Below, one piece after another: positions 2,922 to 29,440 of a DNA stretch of 44,403 bases. Made by a program: the position numbers and the translations under genes. Within the stretch, counting starts at the first letter, position 1. The number at the start of each line of letters is the position of its first letter. The notes beneath the pieces are model-generated. The model saw only the letters and a list, made by a program, of their open reading frames with translations, did not search any database and was not told the DNA's origin. Source of the stretch: a virus; IMG/VR virus record IMGVR_UViG_3300022935_001705, positions 1-44,403 of that record. One strand, given 5' to 3'.

Positions 2922-5444
2922 ATGTACGATATTATATATATTTCGCCACAAAAAACAAAAGATTACAGCATATTAAAAAAACGTTTGCCTTTATTGAAGT
3001 TTGCCAAAGACATCGAGCAAGCAAAAAATTTAGCACTTACGGATTTTTACTATCTAGTTTTTGATGACTTGTTAGTCGATGACAACTTTGTCTTTGACTA
3101 TGAAGTTGATGACTGGAGCAAAGATTATGTTCATGTTTTTAAGAATGGAAACTATTATGATGGAATAGCATTGATTCCAAAAACTAGAAATATTTCTTCA
3201 AAAGAAGTTGAGCATAGGTTTTTTGTAAATCGTAAAGAAGTTGATATACAAGCAAGTGTTCCTAAGCCGTTTGACTTATTTTATGTAGATACCTACAATG
3301 ACTATTTGTTTGCAAGTGAAAACAGTAGTACACAACTATTTTGGGTAAGTTCAAAAAATATACAACATAATAAAGAACTAGTAAATTCTTATTATATTAC
3401 ACATCATGAATCTCAGTTACGTAAACAAAATCATGCTTGGATAACCGAGTTTGGCGCATATAACGGACTGTTTTTGTGTAGCAAAAATAAGATTGCTACA
3501 CAAAAAGAAATAGACTTCAGATTTTTAGTCAACAAAATAGAACACAACGATACTGTTGGTAGCACAAAAACAAAGTATGATGTTTTTACTATTGATAGTT
3601 ATGAAGATTATATTGTAGCATTAGAAAATAGTGAAACTGAAATGTTCTGGGGAGATAGTAATAATATTCTCAGCAATATTCCTGATTTATATTTTCCGCA
3701 CGACAACGAGTATGATCGAAAAACAAATCATAACTTTATACACTGTGATGATAAAAGAAATGGTTTGTTTTTGTTTAGTAAACATTCGCCTGTTACAGAG
3801 CGTGAAATAGAATATAGATTTATTGTAAATGCAAAAGAATGGAATATTGTTGCAAGCCAAGAAATAGAATATCCTGTATTTGAGATTGACTCGTATGATG
3901 AATACTTACAAGCACTAGAGGAAAGTAAAACTGAAATGTTTTGGATGAGTAGTGCAAATATAAAAGCAGATATTCCTAATATATACTTTACACATGATAA
4001 CGAGTATGATAGAAAACGTAATCATGCATTTATTCACAGGGTGCAAGATAATAATCTGTATAACGGGTTATTTCTTTGCAGCAAGCATCGACCCCTAACA
4101 CAAAAAGAAGTAGAGTTTAGACATATTGTAGATCGCAAAGAATGGAACATCATAGGTAGCACTGCTATTGAGTATGATGTATTTGATATTGATAGTTATG
4201 AAGATTATCTATACGCACTTGATAATAGCAAAACTGAAATGTTTTGGATGAGTAGTGCAAATATAAAAGCAGATATTCCGAACTTATATTTTACGCACGA
4301 TAATACATATGACAGAAAAACAAATCATAACTTTATACATTGTGATGATAAAAGAAACGGGTTGTTTTTACTCAGTAAACACACACCTGTAACAAAAAAA
4401 GAAATAGAACACAGGTTTTTAGTAAATGCAAAAGAGTGGAATATTAAAGCAAGTGGTCCTTTAAAATATGACATATTCTATCCTAAGACATATGAAGATT
4501 ATTTAAATGCTCTTGAAAACAGCAAAACAGAAATGTTTTGGATTATACCAGATTATGTAAATCCAACCGACAGATTTAAGTTTGACACATATTTTACACA
4601 TGACGAAACTTATAACAGAGAAATCAATCATGTATATTTGAATGGAAAGTATCACGATGGTATTGTACTATGTAGTAAGAAAAGCAAGTTTAGTAAACGT
4701 GAGTTTGACTACAAGTTTATTGCTGCAAAGAAAGAAGTTCCTGTAGTTATAAGCACACCTTTGCCTTATGATATTGTGTTTATTAGTTATCAAGAAAAAC
4801 TTGCAGATCAAAACTATCAAAGACTGCTAACACGTTTTCCGAATGCAAAACGTGTGCATGGTGTTAAAGGTATTCACCAAGCGCATATTGAAGCAGCAAA
4901 GCAAGTTGATACTCATATGTTTTGGATAGTTGATGGCGATGCGATTGTTTTAGATGAGTTTAAGTTTGATTACCAGTGTGCACAGTGGGACAAAGATACA
5001 GTTCATGTATGGCGCAGCATTAATCCTGTAAACGATTTAGTTTACGGTTATGGAGGTGTAAAGTTATTTCCAACAGAACTTACCATTAATATGGATACAA
5101 GTAAACCTGATATGACTACAAGTATAAGCGACAAGTTTAAAGCAGTTGGTGAAATGAGTGTGTTAACTGGATTTAATACTGATCCTTTTGAAACTTGGAA
5201 AAGTGCTTTTAGAGAATGTTGTAAGCTAAGTAGTAAAGTTATCGATAGACAACAAGATAAAGAAACAGATGACAGATTGTTTACTTGGACAAATGTTGGA
5301 GCAGATAGAAAGTTTGGGTCATATGCTATTGCCGGTGCAAAAGCAGGCAAGAAATATGGTGAACAAAATAAAGGAAATATAGAAGCATTGAGAAAAATTA
5401 ATGACTTTGATTGGTTAAAGGAGCAGTTTGATGCAACCGCCTAG
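2922..5444 (+). CDS. Glycosyltransferase-like protein with six degenerate tandem copies
   Basis: The 840-residue protein ends in the most complete domain (about residues 620-740), which starts YDIVFISYQEKLADQNY, contains RVHGVKGIHQAHIEAA and then MFWIVDGDAIVLDEF. DGD at 671-673 fits the metal-binding DxD of a GT-A glycosyltransferase fold. Upstream lie about six shorter modules of about 100 residues with the core (S/T)YEDYxxALENSKTEMFW, then YFTHDxxYDRKxNHxFIH, NGLFLxSKH and (N/D)xKEWNI. These keep the MFW strand but lack the DGD motif, so they are probably non-catalytic copies. I chose ATG 2922; the in-frame TTG at 2886 is the -35 box. It is the first gene of the cassette. A scaffold, binding or repeat-sensing role for the copies is possible. 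Confidence 0.7.
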   Translation: MYDIIYISPQKTKDYSILKKRLPLLKFAKDIEQAKNLALTDFYYLVFDDLLVDDNFVFDYEVDDWSKDYVHVFKNGNYYDGIALIPKTRNISSKEVEHRFFVNRKEVDIQASVPKPFDLFYVDTYNDYLFASENSSTQLFWVSSKNIQHNKELVNSYYITHHESQLRKQNHAWITEFGAYNGLFLCSKNKIATQKEIDFRFLVNKIEHNDTVGSTKTKYDVFTIDSYEDYIVALENSETEMFWGDSNNILSNIPDLYFPHDNEYDRKTNHNFIHCDDKRNGLFLFSKHSPVTEREIEYRFIVNAKEWNIVASQEIEYPVFEIDSYDEYLQALEESKTEMFWMSSANIKADIPNIYFTHDNEYDRKRNHAFIHRVQDNNLYNGLFLCSKHRPLTQKEVEFRHIVDRKEWNIIGSTAIEYDVFDIDSYEDYLYALDNSKTEMFWMSSANIKADIPNLYFTHDNTYDRKTNHNFIHCDDKRNGLFLLSKHTPVTKKEIEHRFLVNAKEWNIKASGPLKYDIFYPKTYEDYLNALENSKTEMFWIIPDYVNPTDRFKFDTYFTHDETYNREINHVYLNGKYHDGIVLCSKKSKFSKREFDYKFIAAKKEVPVVISTPLPYDIVFISYQEKLADQNYQRLLTRFPNAKRVHGVKGIHQAHIEAAKQVDTHMFWIVDGDAIVLDEFKFDYQCAQWDKDTVHVWRSINPVNDLVYGYGGVKLFPTELTINMDTSKPDMTTSISDKFKAVGEMSVLTGFNTDPFETWKSAFRECCKLSSKVIDRQQDKETDDRLFTWTNVGADRKFGSYAIAGAKAGKKYGEQNKGNIEALRKINDFDWLKEQFDATA
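3289..4700 (+). repeat. Tandem ~300-base coding repeats in the glycosyltransferase-like gene
   Basis: The motif (S/T)YxxYxxAxExSxTxxFW begins at about 3290, 3595, 3891, 4192 and 4486, a period of 294-306 bases. Some copies are nearly identical at the DNA level. A 50-base stretch at 3927-3976 recurs exactly at 4230-4279, and the segment starting at 3720 recurs with only a few changes at 4317, two units away. This points to recent unequal recombination, so the copy number may vary between relatives. Confidence 0.85.
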
Positions 5445-6381
5445 TTGGTTATATGGACTTCAAGATTATTTAGACTTTGAAAACGATTACATTGCAAAGT
5501 TATTTGTAGATCAGTTAATCAGTGTATATTTCAGCGATAATAAAGCAAACAGTGTAAAGAACTTGTGTTTATCAGATGCAGGCGATGCAACCGAAAGACT
5601 ATCAAGATTTAACTTTTATTTTAAGTTATTAGAAGACAACGAAATCGATTTTGTTGAAACTGTTAGTGTAATGCGTAAACGATTACCAAATGTAAAGTTG
5701 TTAGATATATTTCACAAGTATGGACGCAAAGAATATGATATGACTCATCTAGCTGATGCATTTAGTAGAGGTCAAGTCAAAAGTAAAATATGGATGTCGC
5801 AAGAGTTAGAAAAAATTCAAAACAAGTTTGAAATGATTCATGTACATGCAGGCTGGTACGGACAAACAAGATTATATTTAGAAAATGCAGGTATTGAGTT
5901 TGATAAGATGCGTGTTTTTGATATTGACAAAACAGCTTGTGAAATAAGTGATTATGTTTTTAATCTTGATTTGATTGAAGATTATAAAGTAAAATCTGCA
6001 GAACTTGATTTACCTTTGAGGGACGATGATGTAAATCCTGAAACAGTAATGCCTTGGTTAAGTAGGACTGGTGTTGAATACGAAGTAAAAAACTACAAAA
6101 AAGAAACTAGTTATAAAGAAAAAACTATTCCAAACTTGATTATTAACACAAGTGCAGAACACATGGATCACATATGGTATTACAAGTTTAAATATAGACC
6201 ATTACCGTCTGATCCATTATTTGTTATACAAACAAATAACTTGTTTGAGCATGAAGATCATGTTGAATGTGTACACAGTATTGATCATATGAAAAAAAGA
6301 TTTCCTATGTCTAGATTAGAATATGCAGGAGAACTAGAGTTACCTGGTTATAAAAGATTTATGTTGATAGGACGTCCATGA
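5431..6381 (+). CDS. Class I SAM-dependent methyltransferase-like protein
   Basis: This is a 316-residue protein. Around residues 137-170 it has MIHVHAGWYGQTRLYL followed by MRVFDIDKTACEIS, the layout of methyltransferase motif I (here GWYG at 141-144) and motif II (acidic DID at 164-166). Later NLIINTSAEHMDHIWYY has the place of motif IV. About 130 residues precede the Rossmann-like part and are not recognised. AAGGAG at 5418-5423 selects ATG 5431 rather than the TTG one codon earlier. It overlaps the preceding gene by 14 bases. The substrate is unknown. Confidence 0.55.
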   Translation: MQPPSWLYGLQDYLDFENDYIAKLFVDQLISVYFSDNKANSVKNLCLSDAGDATERLSRFNFYFKLLEDNEIDFVETVSVMRKRLPNVKLLDIFHKYGRKEYDMTHLADAFSRGQVKSKIWMSQELEKIQNKFEMIHVHAGWYGQTRLYLENAGIEFDKMRVFDIDKTACEISDYVFNLDLIEDYKVKSAELDLPLRDDDVNPETVMPWLSRTGVEYEVKNYKKETSYKEKTIPNLIINTSAEHMDHIWYYKFKYRPLPSDPLFVIQTNNLFEHEDHVECVHSIDHMKKRFPMSRLEYAGELELPGYKRFMLIGRP

Positions 6382-6599
6382 TTGAAGATTTAAGTTTAAG
6401 AGAGTTACAAAAAGAAAGTGCCAGAGCTTTAAGCACAATGCAAGCAACAAATAATAATATTTGGCAGTTTAACAAAAAAGCACATCATAATAGTCAAAAC
6501 TGGTATAAGGCTGTAATCGAGTGGTACATAGAACAATATGGTGATTTACCAAGTAAGACTGGTCCTGGTAAAGATATAAGGTTACTATATGATGAATAA
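6378..6599 (+). CDS. Small uncharacterised protein, 73 residues
   Basis: This short gene starts inside the stop of the methyltransferase-like gene (ATGA overlap) and overlaps the next gene by 11 bases, so it is clearly part of the coupled operon. The protein starts MIEDLSLRELQKESARAL, has a helical, Trp/Tyr-rich middle (NWYKAVIEWYIEQYG) and ends PSKTGPGKDIRLLYDE. It contains no Cys and no recognisable leader or core of a ribosomal peptide, though a substrate or adaptor role cannot be excluded. Confidence 0.65.
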   Translation: MIEDLSLRELQKESARALSTMQATNNNIWQFNKKAHHNSQNWYKAVIEWYIEQYGDLPSKTGPGKDIRLLYDE

Positions 6600-7254
6600 A
6601 TCTAAAAGAGTAGTTATATTTGGCGACAGTTGGGCTCAAAAAAACACAACAATATATAATTTTACTTGGCCTGAAAAGTTAGAAAATAAATATGAAGTAC
6701 ACAACTTTGCACGAGATGGTACCAGTCTTGATTGGTCTCTGCAGCAACTAGGCCGTGCTGTTAAAGATAACCTTTTCGGAGAGTCGACAGTAATGATTTT
6801 TTTTCTTACTGATCCGTGGAGACAAAACTGGTCATTTTTTGAACAAAATCATCAGTTTCTAGCAAAATGGTTAGTTGAACCCCCTAGGTTTTGGTTAAAA
6901 GACAAAGAGTTGAAAGAAACTATAAGTCCATATTTAAGATATAAGGGGTTTTCAAGAATCTTTTTTCGAAATGTTGCTCCAAGATATGCAATGAGAGAAA
7001 CTACAAAAACAATAGGTATGATTAACCTAATGGCAGGTATGTATGAAAAAATATTGATTGTTCCTAACTTTGAAAAAATTGATTTAAGAAGGATTAAGTT
7101 GCATGATAATATAGATGTGTGGGATCCTATGATTGATATTTTAGGCAAAAAACTAGATTATAACGATAATCAATGTAATCATTTACCGGAGGAACACCAT
7201 AAAACTTTTTTACTCAAACTAGAAAGTTGGATTGATAACGATGTACAAGTATGA
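6589..7254 (+). CDS. SGNH/GDSL hydrolase-like protein
   Basis: The 221-residue protein begins MMNKSKRVVIFGDSWAQ; GDSW (12-15) is block I of the SGNH family with the nucleophile Ser14. NFARDGTSLDWSLQQ follows as a probable oxyanion block (G in place of the usual Gly-Asn region). NQCNHLPEEHHKTF near the end provides a His in the position of the catalytic His of block V. Members act as esterases, O-acetyl hydrolases or transferases on glycans and lipids. ATG 6589 and ATG 6592 are adjacent alternatives. It overlaps both neighbours. A second GDS protein occurs at 41469-42059 but is not closely similar. Confidence 0.6.
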   Translation: MMNKSKRVVIFGDSWAQKNTTIYNFTWPEKLENKYEVHNFARDGTSLDWSLQQLGRAVKDNLFGESTVMIFFLTDPWRQNWSFFEQNHQFLAKWLVEPPRFWLKDKELKETISPYLRYKGFSRIFFRNVAPRYAMRETTKTIGMINLMAGMYEKILIVPNFEKIDLRRIKLHDNIDVWDPMIDILGKKLDYNDNQCNHLPEEHHKTFLLKLESWIDNDVQV

Positions 7255-8320
7255 AGATATTAGAACTATACATTTAGAAAACACACAAAACTGTCAAGCT
7301 AGTTGTCCAATGTGTGATCGTAATCAAAACGGAGGTGCAGTTAATCCTCATATTGATTTGAGCGAGCTTACACTGGAAGATTGTAAACGCATCTTTGAAC
7401 CAGACTTTATCAAGCAGTTAAAAACTATGTACATGTGTGGTAACTTAGGCGATCCTATTGTTGCACGAGATACACTAGAAATATTCAAATACTTTAGAGA
7501 GCAGAACAAAGATATTTGGCTTTCTATGAACACAAATGCAGGAGCAAGAGATGAAACGTGGTGGCGTGAACTTGCCCAAGTCTTTGGCAGGATGGGCACT
7601 GTTATTTTCAGCGTGGATGGTCTTAGTGACACTAATCATATTTACAGGCAGGGTGTTGTCTGGGACAATGTAGAACGTGCAATGCGTAGTTTTATTGCTG
7701 CCGGAGGCAGAGCACGTTGGGACTTCTTAATATTTGAACATAACCAACATCAAGTAGAACAAGCAGAAGAACTTAGTAAGGCAATGGGTTTTGAAAGATT
7801 CCAAGCAAAGAAAACAGGAAGATTTGTAACTGCAAAAAGCGATAAAAAAGAATCTCATCAAGCAGTTGATAAAAAAGGTAATAAAACTGCTGAACTAAAA
7901 AAGCCTGAAAAAAAGTATCTTAATAAAGCATTAAGCAAACAAGATATGTTGTTAGAAAAATATGGTAGTATGGATTCATATTATGATGTTGTTCCTATTA
8001 AGTGTAAGGTTAAAGACGAAGGCAACTTGTTTATAACAGCAGAAGGTCTTGCAATGCCTTGTTGTTGGACTGCTGGTCGTATGTACAAATGGTGGCATAA
8101 AGATCCTAAAACTGAACAAGTATGGCATTTCATAGATGCCGCTGGAGGCAAAGATGTACTTAATGCTAAAACACACGGCTTAAAAGCAGTATTTGAAACT
8201 GGCATCTTTGATAATATTGAAACCAGTTGGAATATAAAAGGTTGTGATAACGGCAAACTTAAAGTTTGTAGCATGAAATGTGGTATCGAGTTTGACCCTT
8301 TCGGAGAGCAGTTTAAATAA
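7241..8320 (+). CDS. Radical SAM protein with C-terminal SPASM-like Cys region (first of eleven)
   Basis: This is a 359-residue protein. C18-x3-C22-x2-C25 (CQASCPMC) binds the SAM-cleaving 4Fe-4S cluster, and CGNLGDP a little later stands where the GGEP-type SAM-binding motif is expected. The C-terminal third has CKVKDEG, then GLAMPCCW and finally a CDNGKLKVCSMKC group, a SPASM-like site for auxiliary clusters. A Lys-rich linker lies in between. It is a clear paralogue of the protein at 19559-20626. ATG 7241 is preferred over the TTG at 7232. It overlaps the SGNH gene by 14 bases. The substrate is unknown; SPASM proteins commonly modify peptides or small molecules. Confidence 0.85.
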   Translation: MYKYEDIRTIHLENTQNCQASCPMCDRNQNGGAVNPHIDLSELTLEDCKRIFEPDFIKQLKTMYMCGNLGDPIVARDTLEIFKYFREQNKDIWLSMNTNAGARDETWWRELAQVFGRMGTVIFSVDGLSDTNHIYRQGVVWDNVERAMRSFIAAGGRARWDFLIFEHNQHQVEQAEELSKAMGFERFQAKKTGRFVTAKSDKKESHQAVDKKGNKTAELKKPEKKYLNKALSKQDMLLEKYGSMDSYYDVVPIKCKVKDEGNLFITAEGLAMPCCWTAGRMYKWWHKDPKTEQVWHFIDAAGGKDVLNAKTHGLKAVFETGIFDNIETSWNIKGCDNGKLKVCSMKCGIEFDPFGEQFK

Positions 8321-8327
8321 GTACTGT

Positions 8328-9458
8328 ATGTCTTTACATTGCGCAAAAACTTATAACAGTATATACTTTAATACTGGAAATATTACACATTGTTGTATGC
8401 AAACCAATCTAGACAACTATAAAGTTGACTGGAGCGATGTTACAAAACTAGACGATTATTATAAAAAACATAAAGCATTTAAAGAAATAAGAAAAAGTTT
8501 AGACAAAGGTATTAAACACCCTGCTTGCGAAAACTGCTGGATAGCAGAAGAAAAATACAATCACAGTTGGCGTTTTGATGACATGCGCACAGAAACTGAA
8601 CCCAGGATAAAGTTTGTTGACATTAGATTAAGTAATAAGTGCAACTTGCAATGTAAAATGTGTCAGCCTCAAGAAACAGATCAACTTGTAAAGTTAGGAC
8701 TAGAACTCCAAAGCAAGGGTATACACACGCCATTAGTTGAAGATATTCCTAGTCCTGTTCCTGATCAAACCAAGTTTCTTGAAATGGTGTTAAAGTTGCC
8801 TCATTTAGAAAAGATAAGATTTGCAGGCGGTGAACCTTTCTTAATGCCCGAGGTTGAAGAGTTTTTAGTAAAACTAGTTGAAATGGGTAAAACAAACTTG
8901 GAAGTAGAGTTTATTACAAATGTAACATCTGCAAAACCGAGAATATTAGAAGCACTTGAAAAATTTAGAAATCCTTGGCTGTGCTGTAGCATTGATGGAA
9001 TCAAAGACACACTAGAATACCAACGGTACCCTAGTAAATGGAAAAGTATTGAAAACAACTTTATAAAGTTTTACAATAGTAAATGTAATGTAAGTATTAA
9101 TCCGTGCATCGGCATTTTAAACTATTTAGATATACATAACTTTTTTGCATGGGCTAATCAGTTTCCAAAAGCAAAAGTTCATTACAATGAAATAGAAAAC
9201 TTTGATTTTATGAACTTTAGATTTATTCCAGAAAACGTAAGAGAAGATTTTTACAAATCATTTGTAAATATGAATCTTGTAAATGCTAATAGGCGTTGGT
9301 ATGCATTTCAACAAAAGGTGATGTATGAAACGGCACAGCCTACAATAAAAGATTGTAAAGATTTAAAACTTTATGCTCTTACTATTTGGGACTATAAATG
9401 TAATGAAAAGTTTTTAGATCGATATCCTTGGGCTAGTTATATGTTGGAGAAAGTATGA
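8328..9458 (+). CDS. Radical SAM protein with N-terminal twitch-like domain (1 of 4)
   Basis: The 376-residue protein starts with a Cys-rich region (C5, C22/C23 and C67-x2-C70) followed by the radical SAM core C105-x3-C109-x2-C112 (CNLQCKMC) and RFAGGEPFLMPE. The Cys layout before the core matches the family annotated as N-terminal-twitch radical SAM proteins, in which a second Fe-S cluster precedes the core. It starts at ATG 8328, 7 bases after the preceding stop; the open frame extends upstream, but that part overlaps the previous gene and looks non-coding. The next three genes have the same architecture. Substrate unknown. Confidence 0.85.
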   Translation: MSLHCAKTYNSIYFNTGNITHCCMQTNLDNYKVDWSDVTKLDDYYKKHKAFKEIRKSLDKGIKHPACENCWIAEEKYNHSWRFDDMRTETEPRIKFVDIRLSNKCNLQCKMCQPQETDQLVKLGLELQSKGIHTPLVEDIPSPVPDQTKFLEMVLKLPHLEKIRFAGGEPFLMPEVEEFLVKLVEMGKTNLEVEFITNVTSAKPRILEALEKFRNPWLCCSIDGIKDTLEYQRYPSKWKSIENNFIKFYNSKCNVSINPCIGILNYLDIHNFFAWANQFPKAKVHYNEIENFDFMNFRFIPENVREDFYKSFVNMNLVNANRRWYAFQQKVMYETAQPTIKDCKDLKLYALTIWDYKCNEKFLDRYPWASYMLEKV

Positions 9459-18535: not shown

Positions 18536-18544
18536 GGAAAGAAA

Positions 18545-19549: not shown

Positions 19550-19558
19550 GACTTTTAT

Positions 19559-21345: not shown

Positions 21346-22208
21346 TTGATAATATAAAGTTAGATAAAAAGTTTAAAAACGTAGGAGTAAAGTTATCAGG
21401 AGGTGCAGACAGTAGCATACTTTATTATGCAGTTTGTAAGTATTATGCCGACACTGATACAAAAGTTTTTCCCATTACACTTGCAACTAGTGGTAAACCT
21501 TACTACATTGATTATGCAAAACGTATAATAGAAAAAGTTGAAGAACTAACTGGTAAGTCAGCCGAGAAACATTACACAATATTCAAAGAACACGAAGGCT
21601 TTAGTAACGAGCAAGTTTATATTGAAGGACAAAATGAAATAGTTAAGAAAGCAATAGAAGAACAAAATCTTGAAATCGTATATAGTGGTTTGACTAAAAA
21701 TCCTAAATATTCGATATTCTCAAAGTTCTTACGTGAAAATCAAGAAAGCATGGGTTATGACTATGAAACTATAATGTTCCATCTTAATAAGAGAGATAAA
21801 AGTCGCGACCCTGAAGCATGGTACCAACTAGTCTTTCCTACTATTAAACTTTGGTTTGAATATAGAGTGCATAAAACAAAAAACTTTATATACGACTGGA
21901 ATGCTGAACATAACTATGTATTGTTTAAACTAGGATTAAAGCCTAGGAAACCACATAAAAAGAAATATACACCTTTTGACCCTTTACTACATTTTAATGG
22001 CGTGTATTTTAACAGACCTTTTGCCACAGGAGATAAGAGGGGTGTATTTAAAGCATATGACGATTTAAATATGATGGATATTTTATATCCTTTGACATTT
22101 AGTTGTGAAGATACAACAGAATATAATGGCATCGGTCCTGATCACAAACATTGCGAGCACTGTTTCTTTTGTGCAGAAAGATGGTATGGTTTTAACAGGA
22201 TCATTTAA
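21342..22208 (+). CDS. QueC-like PP-loop ATPase (2 of 3 in tandem)
   Basis: This 288-residue paralogue starts at the ATGA overlap with its neighbour (MIDNIKLDKKFKNVGVKLSG), and carries SGGADSS and the C-terminal SCEDTTE ... HCEHCFFCAERWYGF. A segment of about 45 residues in the middle (around TIKLWFEYRVHKTKNFIYDW) is an insertion relative to the other two copies. The repeated copies suggest specialised rather than redundant roles. Confidence 0.7.
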   Translation: MIDNIKLDKKFKNVGVKLSGGADSSILYYAVCKYYADTDTKVFPITLATSGKPYYIDYAKRIIEKVEELTGKSAEKHYTIFKEHEGFSNEQVYIEGQNEIVKKAIEEQNLEIVYSGLTKNPKYSIFSKFLRENQESMGYDYETIMFHLNKRDKSRDPEAWYQLVFPTIKLWFEYRVHKTKNFIYDWNAEHNYVLFKLGLKPRKPHKKKYTPFDPLLHFNGVYFNRPFATGDKRGVFKAYDDLNMMDILYPLTFSCEDTTEYNGIGPDHKHCEHCFFCAERWYGFNRII

Positions 22209-22945
22209 TGTTTGATAGTTTTTATTCAAATCAAAATTTTAAAAATATTGCAGTAAAGTTTAGTGGAGGAGCAGATAGCACTATTTTGTATTATGCTTGT
22301 TGCTTGGCATATCCAAATGCAAAAATATATCCAATAACTCTACAAACTGATAAAAAGCCTTTTTATGGCCCAGTCACTAGAAGAATCATTAAAAAAGTAA
22401 CAGAGCTTACAGGTAAAGAGCCTGAAGAACATGTTGTAGTGTTTGCAAAACATGATGATTATACAGAAAGACTGGATGCAGCAGTAGAAAAGATCATAAG
22501 AAAAAACAATATAGATATTGTATACAGCGGACTTACAATAAATCCTCCCTTAGATCATATTTCATTTATGGTTATGAAATATCATAAAGAATATAACATC
22601 AATCCTGTTATTGCAATGGAACATATTAAAAATAGAGATGTATCCAGAGATACATTTACAGGAACTGATTCAACAGTTGATACAATCCGAGGCGAAGCTA
22701 ATATTTTACAAAACACTCCATTTTTAGCTGTAGATAAAAAGGATGTTTATTATGCATATAAAAACTTAGAAGTATTAGAAACATTGTGGCCTTTAACAAA
22801 TAGCTGTGCAGCTCATACAAATGAAAACTTTACAGATTTAAATAACTTTAATCATTGTAATCATTGTTTTCCTTGTTTAGAAAGACTTTATGCATTTGGT
22901 CATTTTATTAGAACTTGTGGCGATTTAGAGTTGCCATACGGTTGA
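22208..22945 (+). CDS. QueC-like PP-loop ATPase (3 of 3 in tandem)
   Basis: This is a 245-residue paralogue with KFSGGADSTILYY (PP-loop) and SCAAHTNE ... HCNHCFPCLERLYAFG (zinc Cys set). Its start shares one base with the previous stop (TAATG). It is the most diverged of the three. It ends the first translational block of the cassette, because a new promoter follows. Confidence 0.7.
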   Translation: MFDSFYSNQNFKNIAVKFSGGADSTILYYACCLAYPNAKIYPITLQTDKKPFYGPVTRRIIKKVTELTGKEPEEHVVVFAKHDDYTERLDAAVEKIIRKNNIDIVYSGLTINPPLDHISFMVMKYHKEYNINPVIAMEHIKNRDVSRDTFTGTDSTVDTIRGEANILQNTPFLAVDKKDVYYAYKNLEVLETLWPLTNSCAAHTNENFTDLNNFNHCNHCFPCLERLYAFGHFIRTCGDLELPYG

Positions 22946-22969
22946 CACAAAGTTTAAAGGTGTTATAAT
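22942..22969 (+). promoter_or_regulatory. Second consensus sigma70-type promoter inside the cassette
   Basis: TTGACA (22942-22947) and a perfect TATAAT (22964-22969) are separated by 16 bases, with a TG one base before the -10 (extended -10). The predicted start is about 22976, which is the first base of the next gene's ATG, so this transcript is also expected to be leaderless. Confidence 0.75.
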
Positions 22970-22975
22970 ATTATT

Positions 22976-24097
22976 ATGATTGAAGATTTAAAATGGAGCA
23001 ACTACGATTTTACTAAGATACCTTTTAACGACATTGTCCAAGTCGGACAACGTACTCTTCTTTATAGAGATATCTTTACTGTTAGTTGGCTTCTTGGTAG
23101 GTTTTGCAATTATCGTTGCAGTTATTGTTGGCCCTACGCTCGTAGCGACAGGAAAGATCATAGACCAACAGAACTATGTCTCAAGACAATAGATGAGATA
23201 AAGAGGCAAGCACGTGATAACGGTTTTAACAGTTTCCATTTTAGTTTGTCTGGCGGTGAGCCTACCTTTCATCCAGGATACTTGGACATACTTGGTCATT
23301 TGGCTTCTGATGTCGACAATACTAATTATACTTCCGTACATATGACATCAAACTGCTCTAGACCAATGAGTTGGTTTGAGGATTATGTAGAACGTGTTAA
23401 GCCTTTCCATAGGGCAAGTATTACAGCAAGTTTGCACACAGAACATTTAAATACTACTGACAAGTTACAAGACTTTGCAGACAAGTTGATACTGTGTCAG
23501 GAGCATGATGTACAAGTTACAATCAATATGGTTATGGTTCCAGACTGGTTTGAACGTGATTGGGAAAATGCTTTGTTCTTCCATGAGCAAGGTATCAACG
23601 TCACCCTTAAACCGCAGTCTGACCCTACGGCGTCAAGAATCGTTGAAGGATACAAAGAAGAAGACTTGAAGCGACTTTGGAACGGTATGCCACAACGTGC
23701 ATATACAGAAAGCAAACGCAAATGGGAAGGAAGACCTAAACCTAGTTTTGCTATTCCTACTGGAGTAAATGGAAAAAATGATGCCAGTGTACCGTGGCAT
23801 ATGCAAGTTGAGTTTAAAGATAGTCAAGGCGAAAAATGGTATATGGATCAAGCTGAAAGATTTAATGCTTTCAACTTTAACAAGTTTAAAGGCTGGAATT
23901 GTAATGCTGGCTATCAAGGTATTATTATTCGTGAGCCAGATGGTAGCGTTAAACGTAGTTACAGTTGTCATGATGTTCCTCTTGGTAATATAGAAACAGG
24001 ATTTAAACTATTTGATAAGCCGATGCCTTGTATCACAGAAAGTTGTGTAAGTTCGGCTGATAGCAAGATTCCAAAAAGGAAAGAAAATGTCGTTTGA
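22976..24097 (+). CDS. Radical SAM protein behind its own promoter
   Basis: The 373-residue protein has C44-x3-C48-x2-C51 (CNYRCSYC), HFSLSGGEPTFHPGY as SAM-binding strand, and a C-terminal GWNCNAGYQGIIIREPDGSVKR-type segment with Cys (SYSCHDVPLG, CITESC) that would hold an auxiliary cluster. It resembles the 13358 and 17372 proteins. The region 23000-24000 uses visibly more C/G-ending codons than its neighbours, and it has its own promoter, so it may have joined the operon separately. No Shine-Dalgarno is evident because the mRNA should start at the ATG. Confidence 0.85.
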   Translation: MIEDLKWSNYDFTKIPFNDIVQVGQRTLLYRDIFTVSWLLGRFCNYRCSYCWPYARSDRKDHRPTELCLKTIDEIKRQARDNGFNSFHFSLSGGEPTFHPGYLDILGHLASDVDNTNYTSVHMTSNCSRPMSWFEDYVERVKPFHRASITASLHTEHLNTTDKLQDFADKLILCQEHDVQVTINMVMVPDWFERDWENALFFHEQGINVTLKPQSDPTASRIVEGYKEEDLKRLWNGMPQRAYTESKRKWEGRPKPSFAIPTGVNGKNDASVPWHMQVEFKDSQGEKWYMDQAERFNAFNFNKFKGWNCNAGYQGIIIREPDGSVKRSYSCHDVPLGNIETGFKLFDKPMPCITESCVSSADSKIPKRKENVV

Positions 24098-24719
24098 CTA
24101 TTATAGTATGCTTACCCAGTTTGGAAACTTTTATCCTCTAAACTTGAAAATAAAGTCGCCTAATCAGTTGGTAGATTGGACAGAAGAAAACTTTGAATAT
24201 GTACCATACAATCCTCGTAAAAAAATAGATCGTTGGGGTCTAAGTATTACAAGTTTAAACGGCGGTGTTGACGGAATACCAGATTTAGATAGTTTGTCCG
24301 AATACAATAAAGAAAACGATACAGCTTATAAAGAAGAAGACTTTTGTGTCCATACGCCTGTATATGAGCATCCTGAACTAAAAAAAATATTAAGTCCATT
24401 TGATAACTACTATGTAAGAACTCATTTTTTAAAACTAAATCCAGGAGGATTTTTTCCTCCACATAGAGATTTAAAAAACGATAAGTTTAAATATTTTAGG
24501 TTGATTGTACCATTAAATAACTACAATCCTCCATATTTTAACTTTATACTAGAAGATAAAATGCTGTATTGGGAAGGCGGAAAAGTATACTTTTTTGATT
24601 CAGCTAAAGTACATTATTTGTTTAACTGTTCGAGTAAACCAAGTTATTGGATAGTAATAAATGTAAATACTAATGAACATACTGTTAAAACAGTAATGAA
24701 ACATTTTGAAGCAATATAG
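24087..24719 (+). CDS. 2-oxoglutarate/Fe(II) oxygenase-like protein, AspH/cupin type (3 of 4)
   Basis: In this 210-residue protein GGFFPPHRDLKNDKFKYFR contains H126-R-D128, and KVYFFDSAKVHYLFNCS contains the second His176, the HxD...H iron site of aspartyl/asparaginyl hydroxylase-like oxygenases. The C-terminal anchor Arg is not obvious. It overlaps the radical SAM gene by 11 bases. Confidence 0.55.
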   Translation: MSFDYYSMLTQFGNFYPLNLKIKSPNQLVDWTEENFEYVPYNPRKKIDRWGLSITSLNGGVDGIPDLDSLSEYNKENDTAYKEEDFCVHTPVYEHPELKKILSPFDNYYVRTHFLKLNPGGFFPPHRDLKNDKFKYFRLIVPLNNYNPPYFNFILEDKMLYWEGGKVYFFDSAKVHYLFNCSSKPSYWIVINVNTNEHTVKTVMKHFEAI

Positions 24720-24728
24720 GGGTAAAAA

Positions 24729-25394
24729 ATGTTAAAAGAAAAACTATTAAGACGCCATCAGCTACCTGGTTTTTTAAAACTTCCGGATACATACAAGTTT
24801 GACATTGATAAAATTTTAGAAGTATTCCAAAATAACTTTGACGAACTTAAAAAAGGAACTGGAAGAGATTTTATTGTAAGTCAATGTGATAGAGGATATA
24901 GCACATATAGCGACGGAAACTATAACTTATACAGTGTAACAGAGTTTGATGAATCTTTTGAACCAGAAGATAACGGTGTCATGAAAAACATTGCAGAAGT
25001 TAAAAAAGATCCACGTTGGGATGAAAGAAAATATACTAAAATAGCAGATTGGGCAAAAGGCACATACATTGAAGAGGTACTAAAATCATTCAAAGGACAA
25101 GTATCTAGATGTAATATTCGTGTTATGGATCCAGGAGGAAGTATTAGCGAGCACATGGATTATGATACTACATTTTCTATGCGTTATCATATTCCACTAG
25201 TAACTAATGACAAAAGTTATTTTACTACAAGACAAAAAGGTGCAAAAGAAGTTGAAACTTTTAGAATGGAAGCAGATGGAAGCACCTATTTCTTAAACCA
25301 AGGGTTGCCACACGCCGCATATAATGACGGAGATACACCACGTATTCACTTAATGGTATGTGTAAACGGTCAAGAGGACATTAGAGGTTTGTAA
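24729..25394 (+). CDS. 2-oxoglutarate/Fe(II) oxygenase-like protein, AspH type (4 of 4)
   Basis: In this 221-residue protein DPGGSISEHMDYDTTFSMRYH gives H142-M-D144 with R152 nearby. FLNQGLPHAAYNDGDTPRIHL gives H195 and R205, a complete HxD...H plus Arg set of the aspartyl/asparaginyl beta-hydroxylase family. A Shine-Dalgarno AGGGG lies 6 bases upstream. Directly after another oxygenase, which suggests successive hydroxylations. Confidence 0.65.
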   Translation: MLKEKLLRRHQLPGFLKLPDTYKFDIDKILEVFQNNFDELKKGTGRDFIVSQCDRGYSTYSDGNYNLYSVTEFDESFEPEDNGVMKNIAEVKKDPRWDERKYTKIADWAKGTYIEEVLKSFKGQVSRCNIRVMDPGGSISEHMDYDTTFSMRYHIPLVTNDKSYFTTRQKGAKEVETFRMEADGSTYFLNQGLPHAAYNDGDTPRIHLMVCVNGQEDIRGL

Positions 25395-25398
25395 TAAT

Positions 25399-27357
25399 AT
25401 GAAGATATTAGTATGTAATCTTGGCTTACTGCCTATGAGTACATTTTTACCTTACTTGTATGCAAGACTTAGGACATATATAGAAGTTGACTATGATAAA
25501 CACATCGATTTGAAATGGCAAACTCCTATATTTCGTTGTTACGATAACGATGTATCCGCTGAAGAAATTCTAAAAGATATTGATGTAAAAAATCTAGATA
25601 TGCTGTTAACAAGTAACTATACTTGGAATATAAATGATCAGTTAGAGTTATCACGTTATGTAAAGAAAGTAAACCCAAACTGCTTTATAATAGCAGGCGG
25701 CCCGGAGATTGAATATAAAAATTTAAAAGTATTTGAAAGATTAGATTGTGTAGATGCTATATGTTACGCTGAAATAGAAAGTGTGATGCCTGAATTTTTA
25801 TATAACTATCAGAACAATATTGATTATGATATCAATGGTATTATTTTAAAAACGAATCCCTTAAAACCAAGAACACCAGTACTAAAAATAGAATGTAAAG
25901 ATATCATCGGCAAACCATATACCCATTTAAAACATGAATTTATAAAATGGGCAAAAGAAATAAAATCAAAAGGCAGCCAATCTCGTGTTGCTGTTAGCTT
26001 CGAAACAAATCGTGGATGTCCTTATGGTTGTACTTTTTGTGATTGGGGAAGTGCAACTGCCTCAAAGATAAAAAAGTTTCAACGTGATTATGTCATGGAA
26101 GAAATAGATTCCGTAATGGAGTTAAAACCTGATTTGGTTTTAATTGTAGATGCTAACTTTGGTATTTTTGAAGACGATCTAGATTACATATATAAACTTA
26201 TTGAATGTAAAAAGAAAAACAACTACGTCACAACAGTGGCCTTCAGTAGTGCAAAAAATAAAAAAACAAGGGCAACACAAGCACATGTTGCATTGCACAA
26301 AGAAGATATGTTAAAAGTTTCTCATATGGGTATACAACATACCGATGAAGAAGTTACAAAAATAATGGACAGAGATAATATCAAGGCAATAGAAAGCATT
26401 AAAGAAATAAACGACGGCTTAAAAGCAGGAGTTCCGCTTGTGCCTGCTCTTATTGTTGGCAGTCCAGGAGACAGTATAGACAAGTGGAAGACTGCTATTA
26501 CAGATTTAATGTGTATGAGTTTTCATGATGACGTGAGATTGCACGATTTTCAGTTATTGCCTAATTCACCTGCCATGGATACAGAATATATGGAAAAGTA
26601 TAAAATAGGCTATATAGATAAAACTTATCACGAGATGCCCAATTCAAAACGCAAAGCAAGTCCTGCTAAGTTTGTAGCCGAAACATTTTCTTACACAAAA
26701 GAAGATTTTGTTGAAATGCAAACGTGGAGTTATTTCTATCTTGGATTCCATACACTTGGTATTTTTAAATGGGCTGCTCTGTATGCACATCATACTCTAA
26801 ATATACATTATAAAGATTTTTATGATCGTGTAGCAAATCTTAAAACTGTTAAAGATATCATTTCACATGTCAGGATTCAAATGCACAGGTTTGTATTGGA
26901 AGATGCGGTTAATAAGTTTATTGATTATGATAATAGACTGTGGCAACCAGATGCTTTCGTTTACTACAAGAGTATTGAAAATTTAGAAACATTATACGAA
27001 GAATTCTGTGTTGAATTTAAGGATGATTTCGGCGATGTGTTAAATGATATTATTGCATTTAACAAGTTTATACAGATAAACTTTGAACACGAACACGAAA
27101 TAACTATTGGACACAACTTTAAAGATTATTTTAAAGATGTACTACAAACTCCTGCATTTGAAAAATCCAAACTAATACCAAAAAAAGAACGCACTGTATA
27201 TGTAAACGATGGATATCTAGGATTACAAAAGGAATATTTGATTCCTAAAGTCAACAATATTAATCAATATAAAGAAAAAATTTATAATAAGATACTCAAA
27301 CAGGCGCCCAATTATCGGCACCGATTATATTACTATCATGGGGCAATAAAACAATGA
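25399..27357 (+). CDS. B12-binding-domain radical SAM protein
   Basis: The 652-residue protein starts with a Rossmann-like B12-binding domain (about residues 1-140) carrying LDMLLTSNYTWN and FIIAGGPEIEYK. The core motif is C207-x3-C211-x2-C214 (CPYGCTFC), and a helical C-terminal domain follows. This matches cobalamin-dependent radical SAM enzymes (class B methylases and relatives), which usually methylate unactivated carbons; the B12 domain lacks the DxHxxG motif, as usual in this class. It is the largest enzyme of the cassette and is unusual for a phage. Its stop overlaps the next ATG by 4 bases. Confidence 0.8.
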   Translation: MKILVCNLGLLPMSTFLPYLYARLRTYIEVDYDKHIDLKWQTPIFRCYDNDVSAEEILKDIDVKNLDMLLTSNYTWNINDQLELSRYVKKVNPNCFIIAGGPEIEYKNLKVFERLDCVDAICYAEIESVMPEFLYNYQNNIDYDINGIILKTNPLKPRTPVLKIECKDIIGKPYTHLKHEFIKWAKEIKSKGSQSRVAVSFETNRGCPYGCTFCDWGSATASKIKKFQRDYVMEEIDSVMELKPDLVLIVDANFGIFEDDLDYIYKLIECKKKNNYVTTVAFSSAKNKKTRATQAHVALHKEDMLKVSHMGIQHTDEEVTKIMDRDNIKAIESIKEINDGLKAGVPLVPALIVGSPGDSIDKWKTAITDLMCMSFHDDVRLHDFQLLPNSPAMDTEYMEKYKIGYIDKTYHEMPNSKRKASPAKFVAETFSYTKEDFVEMQTWSYFYLGFHTLGIFKWAALYAHHTLNIHYKDFYDRVANLKTVKDIISHVRIQMHRFVLEDAVNKFIDYDNRLWQPDAFVYYKSIENLETLYEEFCVEFKDDFGDVLNDIIAFNKFIQINFEHEHEITIGHNFKDYFKDVLQTPAFEKSKLIPKKERTVYVNDGYLGLQKEYLIPKVNNINQYKEKIYNKILKQAPNYRHRLYYYHGAIKQ

Positions 27358-28253
27358 AGACATACGAAGCATGTAATAACCCATTTGATACTATAATGGT
27401 TGATGTAACACATCGTTGCAATATGGAATGTGCTAACTGTTATTTGCCAAATAGAGATATTCCTGATATGGATATCAACAGATTATATGAAACTATTTCT
27501 AAGCTGCCAAAGAGGACATTTGTTAGATTAATAGGTGCCGAACCTACAATGCGTGAAGATATTTTTGACATTATTAGCACTATAAAAAAACTAGGACACC
27601 ATGTAAGTTTGACTACAAATGGATTAAAACTTGCACACGAACCTTATGTAAAACGTTTGAAAGATGCAGGATTACGACTTGTTCTTTTGAGTATGAATGG
27701 CGCCGATGACAATACAATATACAAAGTTATAGATGAAGGAAACTGGGCAACTGCAAAGGTAAGAGCACTTGAAAATCTACTTAAACATAATATGATCATT
27801 AATACAGGTACTATTGTAGCAAAAGGTGTAAATGAAAATGTTATACAGAAACAGGTTAACTTGTTTGTAGAAAAGGCCAAGTTGCATAACTATAAAACAA
27901 AAATAACACCTATTTTACGTTTTAGAAGTGTTGGTGCTTTAGGACGGTATATGGAAAATACAAGCATGACATATAACGAACTTATTCAGTTGGCTAGTAA
28001 ACAACTAGGTGTTAGTATTTCGCATATTGAAAGCAATGATGTAAAAGCAAATATTGATGTAAAAAATAATACATTTGGATATATTTTTCCAATACAAACA
28101 GAAGTAGGTGAAGTGTTTATAAGACTTGTTGATTGGGATGCAGATGAATACGGAGTTCCTGATCCTGATAGCAACAGTAGAGGTCGTATTACACAGGATT
28201 TTAAGATTGCACCGTTTTTTGATCATGTAAAGGAAAATGAGTTTGGCTATTAG
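27354..28253 (+). CDS. Radical SAM protein without auxiliary-cluster domain
   Basis: The 299-residue protein has C22-x3-C26-x2-C29 (CNMECANC) and RLIGAEPTMRED, where Ala replaces one Gly of GGEP. The C-terminal region (ITPILRFRSVGALGRYM onward) has no Cys, so only the SAM-cleaving cluster is expected. Directly behind the B12 radical SAM gene, it may act in the same step. It overlaps the next gene by 17 bases. Confidence 0.82.
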   Translation: MKTYEACNNPFDTIMVDVTHRCNMECANCYLPNRDIPDMDINRLYETISKLPKRTFVRLIGAEPTMREDIFDIISTIKKLGHHVSLTTNGLKLAHEPYVKRLKDAGLRLVLLSMNGADDNTIYKVIDEGNWATAKVRALENLLKHNMIINTGTIVAKGVNENVIQKQVNLFVEKAKLHNYKTKITPILRFRSVGALGRYMENTSMTYNELIQLASKQLGVSISHIESNDVKANIDVKNNTFGYIFPIQTEVGEVFIRLVDWDADEYGVPDPDSNSRGRITQDFKIAPFFDHVKENEFGY

Positions 28254-28839
28254 TGTAACAAATATTATAGACGATGTTGATCTTATTTTACAACTCACTA
28301 CTATAGCAAGTATGGATAAACATCGCAATGCTGTAAACTATGAAAACTTTGGTGCAAGGATAAAAAACTATAAAGCGTTTTATGTAGTAAAGGAAGACGA
28401 AACATATCTTGCAATGAGTGGAATATATCAAGGTGATCATTGGGATAAAGATTTAGCTCGTATAGGTGATAGAAACTATTATTTTCCTATAGCAAGATCT
28501 AAAACATTAGGTTTTAAAGCAGCAAATGGATATACTGCATATAATAGCGATTATCTAGTACCAACTCAAAAAGAATGGTGTTTAGAAAATGGTATTACTA
28601 ATATTTTTTTAAGTATTCAAGAAATAAATCGTAGACCTGCTTTGCAAAAAATGTTAAAATATCAAAAAAGCAAAGGTAACTTTGATTTTGCTATGTTGAA
28701 AGATATGTATTACACATGTAATGAGAAATATAATCCTAACGTATATAATCCTAAATGCTGGCAGAGTGTTATAAGTTACAAAGGTAAAGATATAAACTTG
28801 CCTAAAATACCAATAGAAAGCATAAAGAATGTGGTATAA
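28237..28839 (+). CDS. Uncharacterised protein, possible acyltransferase-like
   Basis: I do not recognise this 200-residue protein with certainty. It is Tyr- and Asn-rich; KAFYVVKEDETYLAMSGIY in the first third followed by a helix-rich half resembles the order of a GNAT acetyltransferase, but the acetyl-CoA loop is not evident. AAAGGAAA lies just upstream of the ATG. It overlaps its neighbours by 17 and 11 bases, so it belongs to the same coupled unit. Confidence 0.5.
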   Translation: MSLAISVTNIIDDVDLILQLTTIASMDKHRNAVNYENFGARIKNYKAFYVVKEDETYLAMSGIYQGDHWDKDLARIGDRNYYFPIARSKTLGFKAANGYTAYNSDYLVPTQKEWCLENGITNIFLSIQEINRRPALQKMLKYQKSKGNFDFAMLKDMYYTCNEKYNPNVYNPKCWQSVISYKGKDINLPKIPIESIKNVV

Positions 28840-29440
28840 CAAAGAGAAAAAAATAGGATTTGTCCATATACCAAAAAATGCAGGAACTTCTGTTACTGGT
28901 ACATTACTTAAACATGATTTTGTAAAGTTTGAAGAATATGGCAAGTTTTATACTTTGCCCATAGGTGTAATAAAAAATCATTTTGAAGATTATCTTATTT
29001 GTTCAGTAGTACGTAATCCATTTGATAGATTAGTAAGTTATTATCATTTTTTAATACAAAAACAATATGGTGTTTTTACCAAAGAGTTTTTAGGAAGTTT
29101 AAGTGACATTAATAAAGGATTTAACTATTGGTTACTAGAAACCGAAACTGTTATAAAAGAACAATATTTGTACAAAGAAAGTATTATTCAAAAACAAACG
29201 CAATGTGATTATTTGTGTGATAACAACAATAACATACTTGTTGACTATATTGGTAAGTTTGAAACTATAGATACCGATTGGAAAACTATCTGTGATCTTT
29301 ATAAAATTAAATACACAGAGTTACCAATGAAAAACACAAGTATGCGTCCTGGATACAAAAATGTCTATAGCCAGGAAGCTATAGACTTTGTTGAAAAATA
29401 TCACAAGGACGATTTAGATAGGTTTAACTATACTTTTTAA
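28829..29440 (+). CDS. Sulfotransferase-family protein
   Basis: The 203-residue protein starts MWYNKEKKIGFVHIPKNAGTSV; IPKNAGTS (14-21) is the 5'-phosphosulfate loop of carbohydrate sulfotransferases. VVRNPFDRLVSYYHF (about 60-74) is the 3'-phosphate-binding segment with R62 and S70. It would move sulfate from PAPS to a sugar or other hydroxyl. Such enzymes act on glycans and polysaccharides, which fits a surface-glycan role. It is the last gene of the cassette; its stop overlaps that of the protease gene on the opposite strand. Confidence 0.75.
   Translation: MWYNKEKKIGFVHIPKNAGTSVTGTLLKHDFVKFEEYGKFYTLPIGVIKNHFEDYLICSVVRNPFDRLVSYYHFLIQKQYGVFTKEFLGSLSDINKGFNYWLLETETVIKEQYLYKESIIQKQTQCDYLCDNNNNILVDYIGKFETIDTDWKTICDLYKIKYTELPMKNTSMRPGYKNVYSQEAIDFVEKYHKDDLDRFNYTF

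Follow-up and report, generated by a model that had tools for sequence, protein, structure and literature searches.

Why should a phage carry eleven radical SAM (rSAM) enzymes in a single block of genes, and what would they make? The block in question lies in a viral record of 44,403 nt, the whole of which is referred to here as the window. The original prediction described a 28-gene cassette on the plus strand, and all 28 closely packed open reading frames (ORFs) are present between 2922 and 29440 in the ORF list of the record. Most neighbouring genes overlap, and no intergenic gap exceeds about 30 bp. A second contig aligns over 31,309 bp at 99.95% identity and parts of the cassette occur in two further contigs (90-100% identity), so the cassette is not an assembly artefact. 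A translated scan places 12 rSAM genes in the whole record, the 12th being a QueE-like gene at 43587-44402. The same virus is also represented in IMG/VR by a 57-kb contig, 99.95% identical, in which the rSAM count rises from 11 to 19. The genes of the cassette are as follows.

2922..5444, + strand: g1, anchor; degenerate self-repeats, then a C-terminal domain of modelled GT-A fold with a VDGDA motif
5431..6381, + strand: g2, anchor (diverged, about 25-36% identical); methyltransferase-like by eye
6378..6599, + strand: g3, anchor; 73-aa all-helical protein (AF2 pLDDT 91)
6589..7254, + strand: g4, SGNH-like by eye, no family match
7241..8320, + strand: g5, anchor; rSAM with SPASM-like C-terminal cysteines (PF04055 1.6e-8)
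8328..9458, + strand: g6, rSAM of N-terminal twitch type (NF033640 198 bits)
9455..10597, + strand: g7, rSAM of N-terminal twitch type (NF033640 208 bits)
10590..11999, + strand: g8, anchor; rSAM of N-terminal twitch type (NF033640 418 bits)
11992..13374, + strand: g9, rSAM of N-terminal twitch type (NF033640 356 bits)
13358..14254, + strand: g10, rSAM with SPASM-like C-terminus (PF04055 2.2e-12)
14245..15177, + strand: g11, PLP-dependent aminotransferase-like, weak (PF00155 0.009)
15174..15626, + strand: g12, putative 2OG-Fe(II) oxygenase (HxD...H by eye, no family match)
15619..16200, + strand: g13, class I methyltransferase-like (PF13489 0.0014)
16197..16718, + strand: g14, class I methyltransferase-like (PF08242 2.4e-6)
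16711..17388, + strand: g15, putative 2OG-Fe(II) oxygenase (HxD...H by eye, no family match)
17372..18535, + strand: g16, rSAM with SPASM-like C-terminus (PF04055 3.9e-11)
18545..19549, + strand: g17, nitroreductase/flavin-like by eye, no match of its own
19559..20626, + strand: g18, rSAM with SPASM (PF04055 2.3e-12, SPASM 9.5e-4)
20623..21345, + strand: g19, QueC-like PP-loop ATPase (PF06508 above gathering)
21342..22208, + strand: g20, QueC-like PP-loop ATPase, tandem paralogue (PF06508 above gathering)
22208..22945, + strand: g21, QueC-like PP-loop ATPase, tandem paralogue (PF06508 above gathering)
22976..24097, + strand: g22, anchor; SPASM-like rSAM (PF04055)
24087..24719, + strand: g23, Asp/Arg-hydroxylase-type 2OG oxygenase (PF05118 2.5e-6)
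24729..25394, + strand: g24, Asp/Arg-hydroxylase-type 2OG oxygenase (PF05118 2.3e-10)
25399..27357, + strand: g25, cobalamin-dependent rSAM, TokK/CysS/KedN5-like (B12-binding 1.9e-9)
27354..28253, + strand: g26, MoaA/TrsS-like rSAM (PF04055 5.3e-18)
28237..28839, + strand: g27, GNAT-like by eye, no family match
28829..29440, + strand: g28, sulfotransferase (PF03567 7.2e-15; phrog_3347 galactose-3-O-sulfotransferase 3.9e-19)

Gene-by-gene Pfam and NCBIfam searches, which the original prediction had called for, uphold most of its enzyme calls. All 11 proposed rSAM proteins have the CX3CX2C motif and a PF04055 match (E 5e-18 to 1.4e-6), g9 being the sole one just under the gathering score (29.0 against 29.5 bits). 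Pfam also agrees on the PP-loop ATPases (g19-g21) and the sulfotransferase (g28), and the predicted glycosyltransferase-like protein, g1, is backed by its fold. The other calls fared unevenly. Two of the 2OG oxygenases (g23 and g24) have their Pfam family and two (g12 and g15) are weak; the methyltransferases g13 and g14 are borne out, but by weaker matches; the PLP and flavin enzymes (g11 and g17) stay weak. The family suggested by eye for g17, nitroreductase (PF00881), is found in 4 of 110 cargo proteins of relatives.

Finer names are harder to assign. The curated cut-off of N_Twi_rSAM (NF033640), 170 bits, is passed by g6, g7, g8 and g9 and missed by g5, g10, g16, g18 and g22. Judged by its sequence matches (TokK 3e-48, CysS 1.5e-31), g25 is probably a C-methyltransferase; the KedN5 equivalog name (NF033712) was rejected, at 152.7 bits against a cut-off of 700, as was NF045646 for g26 (103 bits against 490). 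Likewise, the QueC equivalog name (TIGR00364) was rejected for g19-g21 (23.8, 21.6 and 22.7 bits against 150.3), which match only the Pfam family PF06508, and g21 falls under the cut-offs of both the QatC and QueC models. An Rfam search gave no match. No TM-like segment is present among the 28 window proteins (the TM value of 1.75 for g1 is due to a false N-terminal extension), and one occurs in only 7 of 288 proteins of relatives.

Is the cassette peculiar to this virus? The original prediction proposed a search for the same gene order in marine viral contigs, and an anchor frame does recur in hundreds of viral contigs, from uncultured and mostly large phages. Co-occurrence, expected for most of the genes, holds for g1, g2, g3, the rSAM genes g5 and g8 and, further downstream, the rSAM gene g22; the rest of the 28 are variable cargo. 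The most conserved protein of the cassette is g22 (mean column identity 80%), and its weak sequence match to structures is to viperin only. Records retrieved by g22 contain g5 in 49 of 50 cases and 8-24 rSAM matches in all 50, g5 and g8 are each in 11 of 11 contigs, and g3 is found at 50% identity or more in 33 of 40 full-length g5 loci. Two outcomes had been named in advance as speaking against a system, scattering of the genes in relatives and loss of most cysteine motifs. Neither was seen: the anchors stand together in 49 of 50 records, and the motif is kept in 979 of 991 rSAM proteins, the 12 exceptions lying at locus ends.

The first 25 kb has no nucleotide match in 50,697 phage genomes; tblastn with g22 and the g1 domain gave no match, with g5 a single weak one (23%, in a pelagiphage), and a search with g8 gave three weak ones. 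The single-cell virus AG-345-D19 has distant relatives only. Among 84,980 genomes g5 is found in just 3 MAG contigs, which makes it phage-restricted and led to rejection of a host-derived metabolic origin for it. This bears on the suggestion that these are general auxiliary genes, whose rSAM products would raise the Fe-S or cofactor metabolism of the host. Such a role has been proposed for CP220 (PMC2853527) and for marine phages bearing Fe-S genes (PMC5332604), an A-type Fe-S carrier gene is in 7 of 50 records, and the window has metK. However, an anchor almost without cellular relatives and a turnover of cargo much faster than a core host pathway would allow make this explanation very improbable. 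Neither accessory gene is a fixed part of the system: metK was missing in all 16 relatives searched, which disqualifies it as a conserved SAM-supply gene, and 7 of 50 records is too few for the Fe-S carrier to be a fixed partner.

One clue to function is g1. The AF2 model of a single-domain orthologue (pLDDT 90) matches, at E<=1e-3, GT-A-type glycosyltransferases and one sugar nucleotidyltransferase, and supports a GT-A fold for the C-terminal domain, with TM-scores to known transferases of 0.3-0.5. Orthologues of g1 range from 220 to 852 aa, repeat copy number varying among phages, and g1 and g2 are fused in one relative (G006). No family in Pfam, PHROGs or NCBIfam accommodates g2. The AF2 model of g3, a compact helical domain, has no fold match.

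What if the substrate were a protein or peptide? In this RiPP-like scenario the SPASM and twitch rSAMs would act on a tail protein, on the g1 repeats or on a small peptide. The architectures of g6-g9 (N_Twi_rSAM) and of g10, g16, g18 and g22 (SPASM-like C-termini) are common in peptide maturases, and the variable repeat number of g1 fits as well. However, neither the window Pfam matches nor the 25 families listed from the 110 cargo proteins include a PqqD/RRE domain, and the window cassette has no transporter or leader peptidase. Hidden precursor peptides have no room, because the intergenic gaps are too small. The sole small protein, g3, shows conservation over its full length and folds compactly into helices, whereas a precursor would have a variable core; it was ruled out as an RRE or precursor on those grounds. 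RiPP clusters have a precursor with conserved leader and variable core as well as RRE/PqqD; the cassette has no room for the former, and the latter is not among the Pfam families named above. Protein or peptide modification is distinctly unlikely.

The cargo that separates and follows the anchors varies among phages, and its rSAM enzymes are intact. Over about 158 loci there are 305 rSAM families at 60% identity and 175 at 40%; three are near-universal and the pool is unsaturated. In G010 and G011 the anchors are 85-93% identical, yet several rSAM genes are in one only. Values of pN/pS for anchors and shared cargo (0.08-0.48) indicate purifying selection. In a Pfam survey of 110 non-rSAM cargo proteins, the families listed (25 of 30) include Epimerase/GDP_Man_Dehyd, UDPG_MGDP_dh, RmlD, DegT, Carbamoyltransferase, Nitroreductase, Asp_Arg_Hydrox, sulfotransferase and GDSL. 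Epimerase is in 24 of 50 records and a NodU-like carbamoyltransferase in 14 of 50, mostly 3-9 kb from g5. The window yielded no amidinotransferase, but CPT_0086 of phage CP220 has 20 relatives in the protein set from related phages (best E 7e-43). Judged by these families, the cargo is of carbohydrate type, typical of sugar and aminocyclitol chemistry.

How the cassette is expressed and bounded is suggested by three further features.

2886..2914, + strand: promoter of g1, TTGACA-17-TATACT, the -10 ending 7 nt before ATG 2922
22942..22969, + strand: promoter of g22, TTGACA-16-TATAAT (12/12, extended -10), 6 nt before ATG
29363..29386, no strand assigned: hairpin in the end of g28, with T-rich flanks on both sides

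Leaderless mRNAs are predicted from the near-consensus sigma-70 promoters, which end 5-7 nt ahead of the g1 and g22 start codons. The g1 promoter has at least 11 of 12 matches at the same spacing in 21 of 79 g1 genes, against controls of 0/66 for g3, 1/97 for g5, 1/108 for g8 and 13/2457 for other ORFs. The g22 promoter is kept at this level (at least 11/12) in 46 of 89 g22 genes. The start of g1 at 2922, as originally given, is the right ATG; an alternative at TTG 2886 was rejected since that TTG is the -35 box. The hairpin is a possible bidirectional terminator at a convergent boundary. Tail-fibre and virion proteins lie immediately upstream of the cassette in G012 and G003. This adjacency is seen in relatives only: the left flank in the window is an unassigned 777-aa minus-strand gene, and in G001 the left neighbour is a second array.

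The original prediction left the product as a surface glycan, small molecule or protein. A real, conserved and intact system has stood, and the cargo narrows the choice towards a glycan without settling it. The preferred reading, to which we give a probability of about one half, is a modular, diversifying cytoplasmic carbohydrate-tailoring locus of large phages, linked to host recognition, with a putative acceptor. It is favoured because of the fixed frame with a variable middle, the unsaturated rSAM pool and the kept motifs; because of the GT-A fold of g1, the sugar-type cargo and the tail-fibre adjacency in G012 and G003; and because of the near absence of membrane proteins, the g1 and g22 promoters and the similar gene mix of CP220. 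Several observations count against it: the low GT-A TM-scores, the lack of a recognised nucleotide-sugar synthesis enzyme in the window, tail-fibre adjacency confined to relatives, SPASM and twitch domains that are also typical of peptide maturases, and a DNA-base pathway close to the cassette (FolE in 24 of 31 records, QueE nearby).

That pathway raises the question of DNA hypermodification, in which 7-deazaguanine (FolE, QueE) or another base would be elaborated with variable groups, giving restriction escape per lineage. FolE and QueE, the genes expected of a 7-deazaguanine system, both occur, outside the cassette; the QueE-like gene in the window flank has orthologues 76-82% identical, QueC-like cargo is in 18 of 31 records, CP220 has QueC/FolE genes besides its rSAM module, and rapid variation would also fit restriction escape. 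However, g19-g21 miss the QueC equivalog cut-off, the genes identified in the window include no hydroxymethyl-base synthase, DNA glycosyltransferase or transglycosylase, and cargo with sugar epimerases, dehydrogenases and carbamoyltransferases does not suit a base. Also, 8-24 rSAMs far exceed any base pathway known to us. On balance this explanation is unlikely.

The sugars could instead be those of the host, with LPS or capsule remodelled for superinfection exclusion. The authors describing the pelagimyophage host-recognition cluster, with its glycosyltransferases and rSAM cassettes, interpreted it so (PMC7029224). However, surface remodelling would require host export machinery. Membrane proteins are almost absent, and no flippase, polymerase or lipid-linked transferase is recognised among the listed cargo families; host O-antigen/LPS conversion clusters differ from the cassette in having a membrane flippase or lipid-linked transferase. 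We consider this version distinctly improbable.

Under the glycan-tailoring reading, the cassette would be transcribed by host RNA polymerase. Acting in the cytoplasm, the glycosyltransferase among the anchors would work with the core rSAM enzymes to put in place or alter a shared sugar scaffold, after which the cargo would make phage-specific changes: oxidation, deoxygenation, epimerisation, C-methylation, hydroxylation, amidation, carbamoylation, guanidination and sulfation. The acceptor would most likely be a virion protein of the adjoining tail-fibre module, with the host surface second. Each lineage would thereby have its own surface chemistry, and cargo exchange would be a chemical form of antigenic variation. 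Clusters for aminoglycoside-type antibiotics combine rSAM, B12-rSAM, PLP aminotransferase, epimerase, carbamoyl- and amidinotransferase and methyltransferase. This is a similar toolbox, but the cassette is phage-borne and has no resistance or export genes. A more specific proposal, which we hold tentatively, is combinatorial aminoglycoside-like tailoring, in which conserved rSAM anchors and the GT-A enzyme would hold a slot for the exchange of hundreds of different radical and sugar-modifying enzymes, giving a lineage-specific virion signature.

Is such a system new? The original prediction named it the strongest candidate for an undescribed system, but multi-rSAM phage modules are already known. 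Campylobacter phages CP220 and CPt10 have 11-12 rSAM proteins with an interchangeable module (2010, PMC2853527). After the baseplate spike genes, CP220 (FN667788) has 5 rSAM genes, an amidinotransferase and 2 nucleotide-sugar-transferase-fold proteins. The likenesses are clustered rSAM genes (about five there, 11 in the window cassette), a nucleotide-sugar-transferase-fold protein in the module (here the modelled GT-A domain of g1), content exchanged between close phages (here G010 and G011), and CP220 rSAM and amidinotransferase proteins with detectable relatives in marine arrays. No homology of g1 to CPT_0088/0089 was detected, and tblastn found no CP220 match to g1, g5 or g22. The marine arrays differ in their fixed anchors (g1, g3, g5, g8 and g22), 8-24 rSAMs, two leaderless-type promoters and much wider cargo. 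The T4-like marine genome TARA_ERS488813_N000010, with 12 rSAM genes and Fe-S assembly genes, was reported as Fe-S gene content only, with no cassette architecture, anchors or promoters given (2017, PMC5332604); compared by description only, it may belong to the same group. The pelagimyophage cluster, a hypervariable island, adjoins the tail fibres and contains glycosyltransferases as well as added rSAM cassettes (2020, PMC7029224), but there the rSAM genes are a minor addition and conserved rSAM anchors are not described.

In 2010 and 2017 phages carrying about a dozen radical SAM genes were remarked on and left unexplained. What was a scattered observation is now a widespread system, defined by a frame, promoters and boundaries that can be tested, and linked to a cultured phage, CP220. 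It provides some 300 radical SAM families (at 60% identity) that are unstudied, together with a phage-restricted core enzyme. If the reading is true, no larger reservoir of uncharacterised radical SAM enzymes in viruses is known to us. Aminoglycoside-like tailoring, if true, would amount to chemical antigenic variation via gene exchange. If the product is a variable decoration of virion or DNA, it would add a new layer, built on radical chemistry, to the arms race between phage and host.

The original prediction of a 28-gene plus-strand cassette at 2922-29440, eleven of whose genes encode radical SAM (rSAM) proteins, is borne out. The genes, g1 to g28 in order, are packed end to end with gaps of at most 30 bp. 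The CX3CX2C motif is present in all eleven named genes, and all are assigned to Radical_SAM by Pfam (E 5e-18 to 1.4e-6), one narrowly missing the curated score. g6, g7, g8, and g9 pass the NF033640 cut-off. g25 carries a B12-binding domain, and its nearest matches among solved structures are TokK and CysS. When the whole record (linear, 44.4 kb) is scanned in translation, 12 rSAM places emerge. Two features outside the eleven named genes are:

20623-22945 (+): three tandem QueC-like PP-loop paralogues, all failing the QueC equivalog cut-off
43587-44402 (-): QueE-like gene in the right flank, the twelfth rSAM place

The tandem paralogues are possibly a new kind of amide, nitrile or conjugation enzymes. 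An independent contig from the same virus (G001) is 99.95% identical to window 1-31309 and adds 25.8 kb to the left, bringing the total to 19 rSAM genes in 57 kb. This second rSAM set (G001 31310-57089; loci L046 and L047) lies partly on the opposite strand.

Related stretches are abundant in IMG/VR (39 by the g8 pattern, at least 470 by g22 and at least 594 by g5). A gene-by-gene comparison of 11 contigs uncovered a constant frame, invariably in the order g1, g2, usually g3, g5, g8, and g22, with other genes interspersed. Each contig has a single copy of each of the rSAM genes g5, g8, and g22, at no less than 50% identity. All contigs also have g1 and g2, at lower identity, and g3 is present in 9 of 11. 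In one relative the g1-like and g2-like proteins are fused in a single 827-aa ORF (L070:8853-11336). Among 50 records chosen by g22 alone, 49 contain g5 (E <1e-175) and every one has 8 to 24 rSAM matches. g5 has no evident cellular home: a search of 84,980 genomes found it on three MAG contigs, one of them 46,940 bp long, the same size as an IMG/VR contig.

Two of these anchors, g1 and g22, are each directly preceded by a near-consensus sigma-70 promoter. That of g22 is a perfect TTGACA-16-TATAAT with an extended -10 and stops 6 nt short of the ATG; that of g1 matches 11 of 12 consensus positions and stops 7 nt short. Counting promoters with at least 11/12 matches whose -10 ends 3-9 nt upstream of the ATG, the arrangement recurs at 46/89 g22 and 21/79 g1 genes, compared with 0/66 for g3, 1/97 for g5, 1/108 for g8 and 13/2457 other ORFs, counts that are not fully independent because some loci are near-duplicates. 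Transcripts would start at or beside the ATG and are thus predicted to be leaderless. The simplest reading is that host RNA polymerase transcribes two units, each headed by an anchor. A similar arrangement lies outside the cassette, where a perfect consensus promoter (488-517, -) sits 6 nt before the ATG of a minus-strand ORF (2-481).

The genes among the anchors are exchanged. The best relative of an rSAM protein has a median identity of 29% within its own contig and 40% in another contig. Across about 158 loci there are 175 rSAM families at 40% identity and 305 at 60%, only three of the latter being near-universal, and the count is not saturated. Widespread motif loss, which would have spoken against the cassette, was not seen: 979 of 991 rSAM relatives retain the motif, and the 12 exceptions start less than about 100 bases from a locus end, which has cut off the N-terminus. 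The shared genes, anchors and cargo alike, have pN/pS of 0.08 to 0.48 and are therefore working genes.

Recognised families among 110 non-rSAM cargo proteins are mostly sugar and small-molecule tailoring types (Asp/Arg hydroxylase, nitroreductase, carbamoyltransferase, aminotransferase, epimerase/GDP-mannose dehydratase, UDP-glucose/GDP-mannose dehydrogenase, DegT, RmlD, sulfotransferase, and GDSL). The carbamoyltransferase is mostly 3-9 kb from g5. In the single-cell marine virus AG-345-D19 (L242; MH319727, 5919-7953) one lies beside an N-terminal-twitch rSAM gene, so this pairing recurs in a different lineage.

Comparable modules are known. Campylobacter phages CP220 and CPt10 encode 11-12 rSAM proteins and have an interchangeable module (PMC2853527), a T4-like environmental genome containing 12 rSAM genes has been characterised as Fe-S-protein-rich (PMC5332604), and pelagimyophage host-recognition islands acquire rSAM cassettes (PMC7029224). 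In the CP220 record the module follows the baseplate spike genes and comprises five rSAM proteins, one amidinotransferase and two nucleotide-sugar-transferase-fold proteins. Several of these rSAM proteins and the amidinotransferase have significant relatives in the marine arrays. The rSAM matches may reflect general superfamily kinship, and the amidinotransferase (E to 7e-43) would be the stronger link. The cassette appears to belong with these unexplained phage modules. Its anchored architecture, promoters, spread, and enzyme-pool size are apparently new; no description was found in the open-licence literature, although absence there is not proof.

Upstream of the cassette in relatives G012 and G003 are genes matching virion structural and tail-fibre families, followed by two more proteins that look glycosyltransferase-like by eye, and by a g1 paralogue heading a second rSAM array. 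Downstream is a convergent block with an HNH endonuclease, ATPase, exonuclease, and QueE. The nearest relatives of the HNH protein (44%) are those of large myoviruses, PA5oct and RaK2 among them, and cassette-bearing contigs reach 382 kb. The window also has a subtilase (S8; 29437-31827, -) that combines a plastocyanin-like copper domain with similarity to phrog_9158; it is rare in relatives and is a candidate unusual virion or tail protein. A metK gene (S-adenosylmethionine synthetase; 42441-43520, -), sharing 49% identity with MetK of phages and bacteria, would be fitting for a SAM-hungry cassette; it was absent from all 16 relatives searched.

What does the cassette modify? The main rival target to a glycan is DNA, because the phages also carry FolE and QueE, and CP220 likewise has QueC and FolE genes. 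QueE-like orthologues are 76-82% identical, the gene adjoins FolE in G012 (73973-75694) and FolE is found in 24/31 records. Judged from these genes, a predicted 7-deazaguanine pathway accompanies the cassette. For a glycan, the C-terminal domain of g1 was modelled at pLDDT 90, and its fold matches at E <=1e-3 are GT-A-type transferases, with low TM-scores. In g1 (2922-4900) the first half of the GT-A domain also recurs several times in degenerate form, the number of repeats varying among phages from 0 to several. Transmembrane-like segments occur in none of the 28 window proteins and in 7 of 288 from nine relatives. The conservation of a GT-A protein, the sugar-type cargo, the solubility of the proteins and the tail-fibre genes nearby together point to cytoplasmic glycan tailoring, on a putative acceptor, tied to host recognition, in line with the surface glycan among the predicted products. 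A frame that stays constant around exchanged genes, as in this cassette, is what diversifying selection would be expected to produce, as in O-antigen loci.
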